Source: a virus
Direction: 5' to 3' (one strand)
DNA length: 47,308 nucleotides
IMG/VR virus record: IMGVR_UViG_3300050343_000165
Coordinates: 1 to 47,308 of that record
The notes beneath the pieces were generated by a model. The model ran no database searches and was not told the DNA's origin. It saw nothing but the letters and a program-made list of their open reading frames with translations. Made by a program: the position numbers and the translations under genes. Shown piece after piece: positions 8,223-14,788 of the stretch. Every line of letters starts with the position of its first letter. The first letter of the stretch is position 1.

Positions 8223-8396
8223 ATGACAGACATGACTAAATACAAGAACGTTTCTTTAAGTAAAGAAACATATGCTACTTTAGATAAGTTATCAAAGGTA
8301 ATATTGCCCGATGCAAAATTATCAGTAGCAAAGACAATAGAAGCAATAGCAAACGAGAAAGCGAAGAAATTAAATGGCAAGTTCAAAAAAAGTTAA
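8223..8396 (+). CDS. Ribbon-helix-helix-like DNA-binding protein (57 aa)
   Basis: The sequence TKYKNVSLSKETYATLDKL has the strand-helix pattern of MetJ/Arc-type repressors (polar N-terminal beta strand, then a helix, then a second helix AKTIEAIANEKAKKLNG). The start at 8223 is preceded by AAAGGAAATAAC, better than the ATG at 8208. First gene after its promoter and overlapping the next gene by 23 bp. A regulator, possibly of its own promoter, is the natural inference. Antitoxins share this fold, but no toxin-like partner is evident beside it. Confidence 0.6.
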   Translation: MTDMTKYKNVSLSKETYATLDKLSKVILPDAKLSVAKTIEAIANEKAKKLNGKFKKS

Positions 8397-10764: not shown

Positions 10765-11220
10765 GTGTCACATTTATCAGAGATCCGTAATCGTCTATTA
10801 TCTGTTTCATTTTTGCTTCTAGCTCTTGTTCTGATAGGTCCTCTAGTTTTCCTGTTTTTATTATCTTTCTATCTATGTATAGTCCTGCTGCTTTTCCTCT
10901 GTTTGCTTCCGCGTTCACTGCTGAAGAGAATGATCCTTTTTTTAAAGCGGCCTCTCTGAGTCTTGCAAGCTCTGCAACATGACCTTCATAAGTCACTTCA
11001 TGTTTTTTTAATCTTTCTTCTTTGAGTTCACCAATATATTTGCAACAAGAGGAGATAGTCTAGGGTTGTTAAGTTCTGATCCTTCTTGTCTTGCACGATT
11101 AGGACTGTACCCAGCAGCGACAGCTGCCTCTGATTGTGTCATTGGTCCTTCTGGTCCACCAAATACTAAAAACTCAGCGAAGCGTTGTTGCATTTCTGTT
11201 AATCTTTTTGGAACACCCAT
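10700..11220 (-). CDS. terS: Terminase small subunit (one frameshift)
   Basis: Minus strand, about 170 residues across an indel near 11000. The N-terminal half has MTEMQQRFAEFLV-like and TQSEAAVAAGYSPNRARQEG, the helix-turn-helix of XtmA/terminase_2-type small terminases. The C-terminal half is helical (GHVAELARLREAALKKG, then ANRGKAAGLYIDRKIIKTG, LEAKMKQIIDDYG). It recognises phage DNA and recruits TerL. It is far from and opposite in strand to terL at 15976, which is unusual. Transcription probably starts at the symmetrical promoter just upstream. Confidence 0.78.
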
Positions 11221-11221
11221 G

Positions 11222-11255
11222 TTGACTTTTTAAGGTAACTATCCTATAAAGTCAA
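11222..11255. promoter_or_regulatory. Dyad-symmetric divergent promoter between terS and the gene at 11258
   Basis: Plus strand: TTGACT (11222-11227), 17 bp, TATAAA (11245-11250). Minus strand: TTGACT (11255-11250), 17 bp, TAAAAA (11232-11227). TTGACTTT and AAAGTCAA form an inverted repeat, so each -35 box lies on the other promoter's -10 element. Only one strand could be used at a time. Both transcripts would have almost no leader. Confidence 0.6.
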
Positions 11256-11257
11256 GA

Positions 11258-11443
11258 ATGAAAGTACATAGAAATTCACAAGAATTACAAGAAACTATAG
11301 AAGGATATAAAATGGTTATTGAAGAATTAAAGAAAGAAATTTGGGAATTAAAACAAATTGCATCAGAAAACGAAAAAAATAAAAACTTGTTGCAAGGTTA
11401 TAAAAACGTGATAAGTGATTTGTCATCCAGGGTGGTTAAATAA
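11258..11443 (+). CDS. Small coiled-coil protein (61 aa)
   Basis: Almost entirely a heptad-patterned helix (QELQETIEGYKMVIEELKKE, then IWELKQIASENEKN), consistent with an oligomerising coiled coil. It starts a few bases after the divergent promoter, possibly leaderless, with no clear ribosome-binding site. TAATG overlap with the next gene. Function unknown. Confidence 0.55.
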   Translation: MKVHRNSQELQETIEGYKMVIEELKKEIWELKQIASENEKNKNLLQGYKNVISDLSSRVVK

Positions 11444-11685
11444 TGTTAATCAAACATTTACAAGACTATCTAGAAAAGTTTACTGAAGGTCCAGGTGGTA
11501 CAAAAGGCAATGCGGTATCTAATGCTCGTGTCTATATCATGGACGAAAAAGGTTTCCTTGAAGAGATCAAACGTATTGAAGTACACGAAAGTACAATCAT
11601 AGGCGACAGTTCTATTAAGGTAGTTCTGAAACCACAACGTGAGAAAAAGCTTATTTTAAATCCTGGTTTAGTTAACGATCATTAG
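11443..11685 (+). CDS. Conserved small phage protein (80 aa)
   Basis: A beta-rich protein (ARVYIMDEKGFLEEIKRIEV, then IIGDSSIKVVLKPQREKK) preceded by an amphipathic helix. It is coupled by TAATG to the coiled-coil gene. No domain recognised, though it recurs in marine phages as I remember them. It precedes the VRR-NUC-like nuclease by 32 bp. Confidence 0.6.
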   Translation: MLIKHLQDYLEKFTEGPGGTKGNAVSNARVYIMDEKGFLEEIKRIEVHESTIIGDSSIKVVLKPQREKKLILNPGLVNDH

Positions 11686-11717
11686 TATTTAAACACAGGA
11701 GTAACCTTGAAAACAGC

Positions 11718-12048
11718 ATGGCGCCAGAGCGTAAATTATATCAAAAAGTTAAGAAACATTTTAAAGATTTTTCGCTTATTAGACTGGAAAATAATAGCTT
11801 ACATGGTACTCCCGATCTATTGGGCTATAATAATTCTGGGCACTTTTTCACTATAGAATTAAAAGTTACACAAGGTAAAAAATTAAAGTTTTCACCAAGC
11901 AGAGGCCCTTGGTCCAAGGTCCGAGAAACTTATTCATATGTACAGTGGTTCAAGAATCTTGGAGCTTGAAGCCTGTGGCTTGAAGCTTGATCCTTTATGC
12001 TTGGGGCTTGAAGCTTGTGGCTTGTGGCTTAATAGACTTGGTGCTTGA
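11718..12048 (+). CDS. VRR-NUC-like nuclease whose C-terminus is encoded by heptad repeats
   Basis: RLENNSLHGTPDLLGY and FFTIELKVTQGKKLKFSP supply the PD...ExK active site of virus-type replication-repair (VRR-NUC) nucleases, near residues 25-60. In the starting frame a stop occurs at 11967-11969. A second frame from about 11899 reads AEALGPRSEKL, SGSRILELEACGLKL and so on to TGA 12046-12048. That continuation fits the family better, so I infer a frameshift plus loss of some 15 codons near 11899. The last 28 or so codons coincide with the 7-bp repeat array and give a Leu/Gly/Cys-rich tail. A possible role is structure-specific DNA cleavage. Confidence 0.6.
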
Positions 12049-12091
12049 AGCTTGCGGCTTGGAGCTTGATGCTTGTGGCTTGAGGCCCGGA
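11964..12091. repeat. Degenerate 7-bp tandem repeat array 1 (GCTTGNN)x18
   Basis: Eighteen consecutive units, 13 with an exact GCTTG core followed by two variable bases (AA, TG, AT, GG, CG, GA, AG). The phase holds throughout except for one 9-bp unit at 12027-12035. It lies between the convergent VRR-NUC-like and GP88-like genes and codes for the nuclease tail. Two shorter arrays of the same unit follow at 12856 and 13195. Confidence 0.85.
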
Positions 12092-12150
12092 TCAGACGCA
12101 CGCTCGCTAGCTCCCGTCGGAGGTGTGTCGCTAATGGTCTGATCCTTTTA
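12089..12150. terminator. Long stem-loop between convergent genes
   Basis: GGATCAGAC (12089-12097) pairs exactly with GTCTGATCC (12137-12145), followed by TTTTAT on the + strand. Inside it, ACGCAC can pair with GTGTGT (one G-U) and CTCC with GGAG, giving a long branched hairpin. TCCCTAGGGA just beyond is itself palindromic. Position between two converging genes fits a bidirectional terminator. Confidence 0.6.
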
Positions 12151-12198
12151 TCCCTAGGGATTCTGTAAAATTTTGGGTGTTTAAAAACAAATGTCATT

Positions 12199-12799
12199 CT
12201 AGTGTTTACCATATTCAATATTCTTTACCAGCGGATCCCAACAAGCTCTGCAGCTGCCGCACTCGTTGTTATTGTCAGGGGCTGGACAGCTTCGACTCTT
12301 CGTCGAGACTGTCGACGTATTGGCCCAGCTCTTGACTGGTCCCTGGTCAATCATTGGTGATGAGAATCTTACAACTAAGTTTGCTGGCGCCTTGTGCATA
12401 TGGTCCTTGATCCATGCTTCACGGGTCGGCATCCAGTGTCTTTTGCTGGGTGTTAGCTCACAGACTTCAAATATCTTCTCCAGGTGCTGCACGTCCTGCA
12501 CGTCTCCTGAGTCATGCCATCTAAACACATCAGGCTTCTTGCTGTTGATTAGTGTTGCCATTGCCAGCACCCAGTCAGGGTGACTGATGGCTTCTGAGTC
12601 TTTTATACTGAGCCTCTTGTACAACTTTAAAAACATAACAACCTTTTAAGGCATAGCAGCCTTCACAAACTGAATCAGGTATGAGTCTTAGCTTCGCGCC
12701 AGTCTTGCATTCCTTCGCGGGTATACCTATTGACCAGCCCGGCATCTTTGACGGTTTACTTAACCCTCCAACCAGGGTCCATGCTTCTTTAGTATTCAT
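12199..12799 (-). CDS. GP88-family phage protein (one frameshift)
   Basis: Minus strand, about 200 residues with an indel near 12610. The N-terminal part has AWTLVGGLSKPSKMPGWS and a Cys cluster (CKTGAKL, CEGCYALKGCYVF). The middle has VFRWHDSGDVQD and HWMPTREAW; the end has CPAPDNNNECGSCRACWDP. This layout is that of the phage gene-product-88 family, whose function is not established. The paired CxxC motifs suggest a metal site. It has its own promoter (12827-12855) and is flanked by heptad arrays on both sides. The AAAGGA upstream of ATG 12799 is a good ribosome-binding site. Confidence 0.75.
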
Positions 12800-12981
12800 A
12801 TTCTTTTGTCCTTTCTTTTATAGGATACTATAACATTATAATTCTTACGTGTCAAGCTTGCGGCTTGTCGCTTGCAGCTTGAGGCTTGTTGCTTGTAGCT
12901 CGGTCCTTGTGCTTCTAACCAGCGCCAGTGGTGCAGCAGGATCTGTATACTTTCAGATCCTGCTCTGTTAGTCTTAGTCAC
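12796..12981 (-). CDS. Possible small protein running through heptad array 2 (GTG start)
   Basis: Minus strand, 61 residues. GTG at 12981 overlaps the TAG of the preceding gene (TAGTG) and the stop overlaps the GP88 start (ATGA), so it fits the operon exactly. After ESIQILLHHWRWLEAQGPS the sequence becomes KQQASSCKRQAAS, which is simply the heptad repeat translated. I remember HHWRWL-type starts before such repeats in marine phage proteins. It may be real, or an open frame produced by the repeat. Confidence 0.35.
   Translation of the reverse strand: MTKTNRAGSESIQILLHHWRWLEAQGPSYKQQASSCKRQAASLTRKNYNVIVSYKRKDKRI
12827..12855 (-). promoter_or_regulatory. Promoter of the GP88-like gene, TTGACA-17-TATAGT (minus strand)
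   Basis: Read on the minus strand: TTGACA at 12855-12850, 17-bp spacer, TATAGT at 12832-12827, about 28 bp before ATG 12799. The -35 box directly abuts heptad array 2. Confidence 0.7.
12856..12917. repeat. Degenerate 7-bp repeat array 2
   Basis: Six exact-core units in register (GCTTGCG, GCTTGTC, GCTTGCA, GCTTGAG, GCTTGTT, GCTTGTA), then decayed units GCTCGGT and CCTTGTGCTTCTA. It sits immediately upstream of the GP88 promoter. The two bases after each GCTTG are variable, as in array 1. Confidence 0.8.
12935..12964. terminator. Perfect 11-bp hairpin after the gene at 12981
   Basis: AGCAGGATCTG (12935-12945) pairs exactly with CAGATCCTGCT (12954-12964) around an 8-nt loop. No T-tract follows on either strand. 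It could be a terminator of another type, an mRNA end-protecting hairpin or a protein-binding dyad. Confidence 0.5.
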
Positions 12982-13139
12982 TACAGCCGCCCCGCAAAGG
13001 GGACGTCATCAGGAAGGTCCGGCTTAGGCTCTTCAAACCTTTTCTCCATCTTCTCCTGATCAGCCTTCACCATCTTAATGATAGTATCCAGGGCATCCGC
13101 TATTCTTTTTAATTGTTCACCTTGATCATATAGTTTCAT
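12981..13139 (-). CDS. Small minus-strand helical protein (52 aa)
   Basis: Read from ATG at 13139 on the minus strand: MKLYDQGEQLKRIADALD, then TIIKMVKADQEKMEKRFEE, then a proline-rich acidic end (PKPDLPDDVPFAGRL). AAAGGAA lies 6 bp upstream and a clear promoter lies 22 bp beyond that, so expression is well supported although no family is recognised. It resembles short helical proteins placed before recombination or single-strand-binding genes, but the context here gives no such partner. Confidence 0.6.
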   Translation of the reverse strand: MKLYDQGEQLKRIADALDTIIKMVKADQEKMEKRFEEPKPDLPDDVPFAGRL

Positions 13140-13160
13140 AGTTTATTCCTTTCTAAATAC

Positions 13161-13189
13161 ATCCTACATTATCCTTGAGCCATTGTCAA
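13161..13189 (-). promoter_or_regulatory. Minus-strand promoter TTGACA-17-TAGGAT
   Basis: On the minus strand TTGACA (13189-13184) is followed after 17 bp by TAGGAT (13166-13161). The spacer start ATGG resembles that of the promoter at 15443. It drives the gene at 13139 and probably the genes behind it. Confidence 0.7.
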
Positions 13190-13341
13190 GCGTTGCTTGC
13201 GGCTTGAGGCTTGGCGCTTTTTACTTTCTTCTTTAGAATGATTTTTAGAATCATTCTAAACTGGCAATTTACCCGTTGCGCCTCCTGATCAGGGAACTCG
13301 GCGCACCATGGTGTTACACACATTGCTAGGTTGCCCATCAT
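13186..13341 (-). CDS. Possible small minus-strand protein ending in heptad array 3
   Basis: Minus strand from ATG 13341, 51 residues: MMGNLAMCVTPWCAEFPDQE, then AQRVNCQFRMILK, then a basic stretch and AKPQAASNA, which is the heptad repeat translated. Open sequence continues upstream to about 13371 without an ATG. I recall VTPWCAEF-type starts in marine phage hypotheticals. It has no visible promoter or good ribosome-binding site, and its stop lies in the promoter of the next gene. Confidence 0.35.
   Translation of the reverse strand: MMGNLAMCVTPWCAEFPDQEAQRVNCQFRMILKIILKKKVKSAKPQAASNA
13195..13222. repeat. Degenerate 7-bp repeat array 3
   Basis: GCTTGCG, GCTTGAG, GCTTGGC and a decayed GCTTTTT, in register. 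It lies immediately upstream of the promoter at 13161-13189, the same position relative to a minus-strand promoter as array 2. Confidence 0.7.
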
Positions 13342-13413
13342 CGCTAACGTACAGGGAAATGCCAAAGGCAAGATTTGGACGCTGGTGTACTCTTACTGAT
13401 ACTATTATTAGCA

Positions 13414-13481
13414 GGACCATTCCAGTGAAGAGCCCGGTGACAATTGTTTACCGCCTAGGCAGGGCTCATATAAAATGGTCC
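13414..13481 (+). ncRNA. Nested stem structure, candidate structured RNA
   Basis: Three nested exact pairings: GGACCATT (13414-13421) with AATGGTCC (13474-13481); GAGCCC (13430-13435) with GGGCTC (13462-13467); GGT (13436-13438) with ACC (13450-13452), extended by two more pairs. A palindromic GCCTAGGC lies inside. No credible protein is encoded on the + strand here. The strand is undetermined; either strand would fold. It may be an RNA, a protein-bound cruciform or part of an origin. Confidence 0.4.
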
Positions 13482-13583
13482 AGCAAATAATGATCAGTCA
13501 CTATGCTACGCGGGGGGCCAACGCAGTGTATTTCAGTTGGCATTCGAGGATCCTTTACGCACCCACCGTGTTATAGTGTTAAG

Positions 13584-13710
13584 TCTCACAGTCAATAATG
13601 ACTGATCCCAGATCCAATTTACCAGTTCTAAAGCATAGCTGAACTTACTATCCATTGGATCAGGGATCAGTGCAGGGGAATTTTTAGGGTATCCCCTGCT
13701 CCTATTTTTT
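13584..13710 (+). ncRNA. Candidate small RNA with long hairpin and intrinsic terminator
   Basis: An extended -10 (TG at 13569-13570, then TATAGT at 13572-13577) would start transcription near 13584. The transcript would contain an 18-bp hairpin with one mismatch (13601-13618 with 13654-13671), an inner AGTTC/GAACT stem in its loop, and an intrinsic terminator. No gene lies here: the preceding minus ORF starts at 13341 and the next gene at 13823. The start site is inferred and no -35 box was found. Confidence 0.45.
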
Positions 13711-13715
13711 TATTT
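13672..13715 (+). terminator. Intrinsic terminator
   Basis: GCAGGGGA (13672-13679) pairs exactly with TCCCCTGC (13692-13699), followed by TCCTATTTTTTTATTT. This is the clearest rho-independent terminator in the window, and it has no protein gene directly before it on the + strand. Confidence 0.8.
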
Positions 13716-13744
13716 CACCTAAACAGAATAAAAAACATAATTAA

Positions 13745-13783
13745 TATATAATCCTTGACTATCCTATTGTCAAGTAGTAAAAC
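13745..13783. promoter_or_regulatory. Dyad-symmetric divergent promoter upstream of the gene at 13823
   Basis: CTTGAC (13754-13759) and GTCAAG (13769-13774) flank TATCCTATT. On the minus strand TTGACA (13773-13768) is followed after 17 bp by TATATA (13750-13745). On the plus strand TTGACT (13755-13760) has a weak TAAAAC at 13778-13783. The layout copies that at 11222-11255. The minus promoter would read into the RNA region at 13.4-13.7 kb. Confidence 0.55.
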
Positions 13784-13822
13784 AATTAAATGCAAAATAA
13801 AAATAATAACCAGAAAGGTACA

Positions 13823-14788
13823 ATGACTAAAATAAGAATGAATACAGAGTTAAGAAATAAACTCTTTAATAAAATCAAAAATGTCTTTGAGAACGAGGAC
13901 ACACAAGAGAAAGAGGCATATCTTCAATCAAGGGAAGATGTTGATAGACAATATGAACAAGCACATAGACTTGCAGTTGATGTTGTTGAAAGATCATATC
14001 CACCAGAAGATGTTTCTGTTTTAAGAACTTTCAAAAAGAAATATGGAAGTCCTTGTGATGTTGTTGCAAAAGATAAATGCTTTTACTTTGCACACAATGA
14101 GGGCGTTGATGATGAGGGCGAACCAACAGAAACAAAATCACACTTTGATTTTGGTTTGTTTGGTAATCTTAATGGTAGTGAGTATAGTGGCGACGAGGGT
14201 AAAAAGTTTGCGTTTGCATATTACCGAGAAGATTTAAAAGCTATGGATTGCAACCCAGATATATATGCTCAACAAATGAGAACAAAGATAACCCACACAA
14301 AACAAAACATGTTGACGAGTGTACTAAAGCATTGGGTGGTAGTGGTAATAGTTATAGTAGTAGTGATGATCAAGGTATGGCTAAAACTTTTAATGACCAA
14401 TACTATCTTGATGTCATTGGAACATCTTACTGTCGTTCAAGAGCAATCGCATGTACTAAAGATGAGTACGAACAATTTGAAACTTGGCGAATTGCAAAAG
14501 GTAATTTAGTTGTTAATCATCAAAAATGGATTGATACAATTATGAAACAATGCGACCAATTAAAAATTGGATTGAAAGCATACAGATATCTTTCAGAGGG
14601 TATTGAGTTGGCTACTGAAGTTAGGTATTCAAGTTGATGAGGCAGAACTAATTAGAACTAACTCAACAGGATTGACAATCTACAATCCTAGCAACTTGGC
14701 TAGTATGATTAAGGGTATGAAGAACAAAAATCAATCAAGAGAGGCGAAAATATTGGCAAGAAAAAAATATGAAGAAAGTCTAAATTAA
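13823..14788 (+). CDS. Conserved phage protein, about 320 aa (two frameshifts)
   Basis: ATG 13823 follows AGAAAGGTACA and is preferred to 13790. The N-terminal region is helical (NTELRNKLFNKIKNVFENED). The middle has KKYGSPCDVVAKDKCFYFAH and an acidic segment, HFDFGLFGNLNGSEY. After an indel near 14285 come KTKHVDECTKALGG and YYLDVIGTSYCRSRAIACT. After another near 14615 comes IQVDEAELIRTNSTGL, ending KKYEESLN. I know the type as a conserved marine-phage hypothetical and cannot name a fold. Several Cys residues (SPCD, DKCF, VDEC, TSYC, IACT) might bind metal. It is followed by three small genes with a shared leader signal. Confidence 0.7.

Follow-up and report, generated by a model that had tools for sequence, protein, structure and literature searches.

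Organization of the repeat locus

The window, i.e. the whole stretch of 47,308 nt of viral DNA that was analysed, carries three plus-strand arrays of the heptamer GCTTGNN, set among a group of leftward genes. The features of the locus are as follows.

11934..12218, minus strand: small ORF of 94 aa (...VFKHPKFYRIPRDK...), ortholog of HTVC027P gp32; array 1 encodes its repetitive tail
11964..12031, plus strand: array 1, first block, nine units, seven with exact GCTTG
12043..12082, plus strand: array 1, second block, six exact units, shifted by 2 bp relative to the register of the first block
12089..12149, plus strand: hairpin GGATCAGAC...GTCTGATCC followed by TTTT, just after array 1, folded at -26.6 kcal/mol
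12199..12799, minus strand: GP88-family gene (PF17338; ortholog of HTVC027P gp33), frame-broken into ORFs 12575-12799 and 12199-12636
12827..12855, minus strand: promoter of the GP88 gene, -35 TTGACA (12855-12850), 17-bp spacer, -10 TATAGT
12856..12909, plus strand: array 2, eight units (six exact), the first touching the -35 box (gap 0)
12981..13139, minus strand: ORF of 52 aa, ortholog of HTVC027P gp34 (67% identity)
13161..13189, minus strand: promoter of the 52-aa ORF, -35 TTGACA (13189-13184), 17-bp spacer, -10 TAGGAT
13195..13220, plus strand: array 3, four units (three exact), 5 bp from the -35 box

Read from right to left on the minus strand, the module consists of an array-less promoter, a non-coding region with an RF02976 RNA, array 3 and its promoter, the 52-aa ORF, array 2 and its promoter, the GP88-family gene, the small gp32-type ORF with its array-encoded tail and, at the far end, array 1. 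For HTVC027P gp32, the annotated frame yields the conserved start. On the plus strand the two -35 boxes read TGTCAA, at 12850-12855 for array 2 and at 13184-13189 for array 3. A rightward VRR-NUC-like ORF, named by eye from the sequence with weak library matches, has its stop codon at 11969, and the hairpin at 12089-12149 appears to be the intrinsic-terminator-like end of its transcript. The first-pass annotation had placed array 1 in the gap between convergent genes. The gene ends are indeed convergent, but the array covers the 3' end of the minus-strand ORF and begins inside the last codons of the VRR-NUC-like ORF, and therefore lies in an overlap zone of the two genes rather than in a plain gap.

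Some further features of the module were recorded. The GP88 gene, broken in the window contig, is intact in relatives, and the break may be either an assembly error or a real lesion. A GP88 structure model reached a pLDDT of 90, with invariant cysteines (L152 and 34 other GP88 loci); the best matches of a Foldseek search with this fold were all non-significant, several of them being radical-SAM-like (viperin-like). The Rfam family RF02976 (Flavobacterium-1 RNA) was matched in two SAR11 phages, at 13271-13390 of the window (minus strand, 103.5 bits), adjoining array 3, and at 7446-7566 of contig L129 (minus strand, 90.2 bits). The segment 13430-13720 is highly conserved with HTVC027P, ends in a terminator-like hairpin and perhaps encodes a second non-coding RNA. 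The promoter region that has no array (CTTGACTATCCTATTGTCAAG; -35 at 13773, minus strand) lies upstream of the non-coding region, forms an inverted repeat and is near-identical across diverged phages.

The arrays are genuine and chance is excluded. The sequence GCTTGNNGCTTG was matched, with at most one mismatch, 24 times in the window compared with 2.1 expected from shuffles, and 23 of the 24 matches fell in the array region. Pairs of GCTTG exactly 7 bp apart numbered 16, with a shuffle mean of 0.002 and a shuffle maximum of 1, thus confirming the earlier description of a 7-bp repeat with a fixed GCTTG and two free bases. The single register of 18 units previously assigned to array 1 was found to hold within the blocks of nine and six units and to fail across them, because the blocks are separated by a 2-bp slip (12043-11964 = 79 = 11x7+2).

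All arrays have one orientation, and the unit reads NNCAAGC on the strand that carries the leftward genes. As noted before, seven is not a multiple of three and translation gives periodic tails in any frame; moreover, a stop codon is impossible in every frame of the CAAGC strand, whatever the two free bases, while the GCTTG strand can hold TGA and TAG. The repeats might be kept for what they encode, a flexible C-terminal tail of the KxQASS type. This would agree with the stop-free reading and with the observation that, in those relatives that were inspected, the small gene following GP88 takes its tail from array 1. Nevertheless, arrays 2 and 3 lie outside conserved genes, the tails differ with the type of period (KxQASS or ASER) and conservation follows base position rather than codon position, because the 7-bp unit cycles through the frames. 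We consider this explanation very improbable.

Distribution in phages and hosts

Judged from its sequence, the window belongs to a pelagiphage of the HTVC023P type and is closely related to HTVC027P, which it matches at 75% over half of positions 11000-14000 and at 69% in the terminase large subunit. HTVC027P has all three arrays, at positions as in the window. A pattern scan of IMG/VR returned at least 120 stretches, the majority being contigs in which two to five arrays share a strand, and arrays occupy the same places in more than 100 marine viral contigs. A further set of 80 loci was selected by means of the GP88 protein, independently of the repeat. Upstream of the gene, 53 of 78 loci had arrays of at least three units; downstream, the count was 61 of 80. 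The motif was not found in HTVC023P, HTVC033P, three roseophages and a Caulobacter phage.

The search of pelagiphages and SAR11 genomes proposed with the first description located the arrays in HTVC027P and its relatives; among 297 SAR11 genomes the motif was absent from 296, the single exception being an apparent phage contig. Operators of a host nucleoid protein with matching arrays in the host are therefore disfavoured. The promoter-joined pattern was retrieved from genome contigs in two SAR11 single-cell or MAG contigs, one of them clearly phage (GP88 and terminase), and in one Cytophagales coding-region run.

Two viral contigs that match the pattern, L101 and L037, were set aside, being GC-rich, unrelated and devoid of the architecture. 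GCTTG heptad runs also occur in the unrelated Bacteroidota genomes G318, G339 and G003 and in L101, often with identical units (GCTTGAG or GCTTGTG). CAAGC heptads may also occur in Pseudomonas intergenic regions. Our literature search found nothing on GCTTG heptads, and the pelagiphage literature examined is silent on such repeats or promoters. As far as we could find, arrays of this kind are known from plasmids and have not been described for these phages.

Register of the arrays with promoters

Among 103 promoter-adjacent arrays, the exact join NNCAAGC/TTGACA was observed in 72, and most others have a gap of 2, 3 or 5 bp. The spacer between the -35 and -10 boxes measured 17 bp in 52 of the 68 promoters with a scorable -10. 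In the loci selected by GP88, CAAGC directly preceded TTGACA at 25 of 55 sites upstream of GP88 and at 10 of 368 elsewhere, and all ten of the latter proved to be further array promoters. The position of the repeat relative to TTGACA is thus conserved. In the window itself, the earlier statement that arrays 2 and 3 both abut a minus-strand -35 box is exact for array 2 (12850-12855 followed by 12856), while array 3 lies 5 bp away.

The orientation of the arrays might also be read as a role at the RNA level, with CAAGCNN in the leftward transcripts downstream of each gene acting in termination, processing or RNA-protein binding. The sense (transcribed) strand of every array carries CAAGC, arrays 2 and 1 are situated where leftward genes have their 3' ends, and a conserved non-coding RNA adjoins array 3. 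However, such a role does not predict abutment to the -35 box of the next gene, arrays 2 and 3 lack a following U-tract when read leftward, and the 4-bp relatives of the repeat, (GAGC)n, are G-rich, unlike Rho sites. An RNA-level function thus appears improbable.

Sequence constraint and spacing of the units

In 117 pairs of related promoter arrays, mismatches amounted to 1.9% in the core, 45% at NN and 16% in the promoter flank; as the core served to detect the arrays, its conservation is partly overestimated here. For the loci selected by protein, where the register was not imposed, the corresponding values were 21%, 36% and 16%. Within arrays, the NN of neighbouring units were less alike than in within-array shuffles (lag-1 z of -3.9 and -2.3), while units three apart, i.e. 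21 bp or two helical turns, were more alike (lag-3 z of 3.7 and 2.9), a signal that fits either helical phasing or 21-bp duplications.

These data bear on the possibility that the repeats are non-functional, having grown by replication slippage or unequal exchange and spread among the three sites by recombination. The unit number differs between relatives, the lag-3 similarity is compatible with occasional 21-bp duplications, the arrays of a phage have one period in common, and identical-unit GCTTGAG runs exist in unrelated Bacteroidota. On the other hand, neighbouring units are less alike in NN than shuffled ones, whereas slippage would give the reverse at lag 1, and no homogenisation of the free bases is seen, which disfavours slippage; moreover, GCTTG stays while NN drifts to 45% mismatch, and the arrays of diverged phages meet the -35 box precisely. 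A slippage origin without function therefore seems quite improbable.

The 7-bp spacing is not obligatory, since in relatives without 7-bp arrays the CRAGC core often recurs every 8 or 4 bp, both ahead of the promoter and behind GP88. When the period was scored separately at the two sites, 53 loci were 7/7, three 8/8, one 4/4, two 4/8 and one discordant; these loci are related by descent and the counts are not independent events. A shared period at separate sites of one genome suggests either one trans-acting factor or recombination between the sites. In the 4-bp relative 023Pt_psg01 a G-rich element is also repeated at the sites of the array. GAGC/AAGC 4-bp repeats with the G-rich element GGGAGGGTGGGCCC were likewise seen at corresponding sites of the relatives L145, L177, L180, L182, L195, L199, L203 and L212.

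A candidate DNA-binding protein

By comparing HTVC027P with the window, HTVC023P, 023Pt_psg01 and IMG/VR contigs, one small protein was singled out as a candidate ligand of the arrays.

8223..8396, plus strand: candidate ligand of 57 aa (MTDMTKYKNVSLSKETY...), ortholog of HTVC027P gp21, probable ribbon-helix-helix (RHH) protein

Members of the gp21 family (57-59 aa) have a basic N-terminal segment and two predicted helices. All 15 contigs that were picked by the RHH protein and extend at least 7 kb downstream contained arrays, which lay on a single strand 3.6-6.6 kb away; conversely, the RHH gene was present in 17 of 20 contigs picked by the arrays with at least 6.7 kb upstream. This co-occurrence may reflect shared descent.

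The assignment of the 57-aa protein to the RHH fold is probable and is based on a match of a diverged ortholog to RHH_1 over 36 of 39 positions (E 2.4e-4 and 0.0023, below the curated cut-off) and on the predicted helix layout, helices 14-27 and 35-50 following an extended N-terminus in a weak monomer model (pLDDT 67, pTM 0.40). The protein of the window itself matched no RHH family, a Foldseek search with its model returned nothing significant, and a profile comparison with two known RHH sequences gave no support either way. HTVC023P encodes a diverged homolog of the protein and is without arrays. A by-eye comparison of the RHH ribbon sequence with the array period revealed no link.

The arrays might be operators of the same kind for another ligand. 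This could be some other protein of the phage, or a nucleoid or regulatory protein of the host whose function there does not depend on such arrays. The RHH fold and the binding of the 57-aa protein are unproven, the autographivirus KT997847 has a near-identical N-terminal RHH ribbon and no arrays, and further uncharacterised small phage proteins co-occur with the arrays. Against this, arrays occur in none of 296 SAR11 genomes and, among the co-occurring phage proteins scanned, a DNA-binder layout was present only in the RHH family. We regard a different ligand as rather unlikely, yet a serious alternative.

Expression and proposed role of the arrays

In the transcriptome of HTVC027P infection, gp33 and gp34 alone make up a temporal cluster of their own, with high levels at 6-9 h after infection; the authors left this cluster unexplained (PMC12753301). 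These are the two genes with array promoters. Their shared expression is support and not proof, because both are neighbours on one strand, and the co-expression could have other causes.

On balance, we interpret the arrays, with modest confidence, as tandem operators. Their ligand would be a DNA-binding protein that the phage encodes and that acts cooperatively; the RHH protein encoded at 8223-8396 is the most likely candidate, and would time the GP88 gene and the small ORF. Protein binding, the identity of the binder as this RHH protein and the sign of the regulation are all inferred. According to this model, the candidate protein would bind NNCAAGC with one dimer per unit and polymerise cooperatively in 7-bp steps, three units corresponding to 21 bp or two helical turns, until it reached the -35 box, and the GP88 gene and the small ORF would be timed as one regulon. 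Shut-off after a mid-infection burst would be the most likely outcome, and activation from the same position would be possible. Array 1, the longest and located at the far end of the module, might be a further nucleation site, or might titrate the protein, promote looping or form a roadblock close to the convergent terminator; this is the least certain part of the model.

Among the readings originally offered for the repeats, the landing strip for a regulatory protein is best supported, by the -35 abutment, the constrained core with free NN, the positions of the arrays and the shared expression, while slippage and a host nucleoid protein with matching host arrays are disfavoured. Replication iterons are not supported, and no Rep-type gene was noticed beside the arrays.

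A broader and more tentative possibility is an operator code specific to phages. Every lineage would space the CRAGC core of all its sites in a single way (7, 8 or 4 bp), and a small RHH protein evolving together with the sites would read them and wrap the promoters of a middle-gene regulon. The lineages would then form a natural series in which one cooperative regulator varies in its spacing. If the operator interpretation is correct, the 7-, 8- and 4-bp lineages would represent a natural experiment on spacing change in cooperative operators. Pelagiphages infect the commonest bacteria of the ocean, and those of the HTVC023P type are abundant. Next to nothing has been established on pelagiphage gene timing; the arrays provide a concrete cis-element and the 57-aa protein a candidate trans-factor. 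Together, the arrays and the candidate gene are also easy metagenome markers for these phages.

Comparison with known systems

The RHH protein omega (ParB) of plasmid pSM19035 recognizes parS sites made of contiguous non-palindromic 7-bp repeats, 7-10 per site, with several sites per replicon overlapping the promoters of the genes it controls, and binds cooperatively with one RHH dimer per repeat (PMC9499535). The phage arrays similarly consist of contiguous 7-bp direct repeats at three sites, co-occur with a probable RHH protein and abut promoters, the control of the corresponding genes being inferred. Unlike pSM19035, whose consensus is WATCACW, the phage consensus is GCTTGNN/NNCAAGC with all arrays in one orientation; a search for a ParA-type ATPase (PF13614) in five phage records gave no match; the probable ligand is encoded kilobases from the arrays, by a gene whose own promoter lacks an array; relatives switch to 8- or 4-bp spacing; and the carrier is a lytic phage rather than a plasmid. 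In view of the different consensus, of the ParA search without a match and of an RHH fold that is no more than probable, we do not class the arrays with the omega/heptad system.

MetJ is an RHH repressor with a metabolite corepressor that binds cooperatively to tandem short boxes near promoters, the met boxes being palindromic 8-mers in two to five copies. By analogy, the 8-bp spacing of some phage relatives and a cooperative RHH protein on tandem boxes near promoters would resemble this system, although the phage CAAGC core is non-palindromic and spaced at 7 bp in the window, and a sequence relation to MetJ is not shown. The heptamers recognized by SARPs, which are actinobacterial winged-helix activators, lie next to the -35 region, are used for activation and are spaced by 4 bp, giving an 11-bp period. 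Heptameric direct repeats for SARPs are present at promoters in Streptomyces (PMC5930380); the phage repeats share with them the heptameric unit and the location beside the -35 box, and differ in being contiguous at 7 bp. Finally, slippage-type heptameric repeats of bacteria consist of near-identical, G-rich 7-nt units (PMC4692102), unlike the phage unit, in which two of the seven positions are free and neighbours avoid identity.
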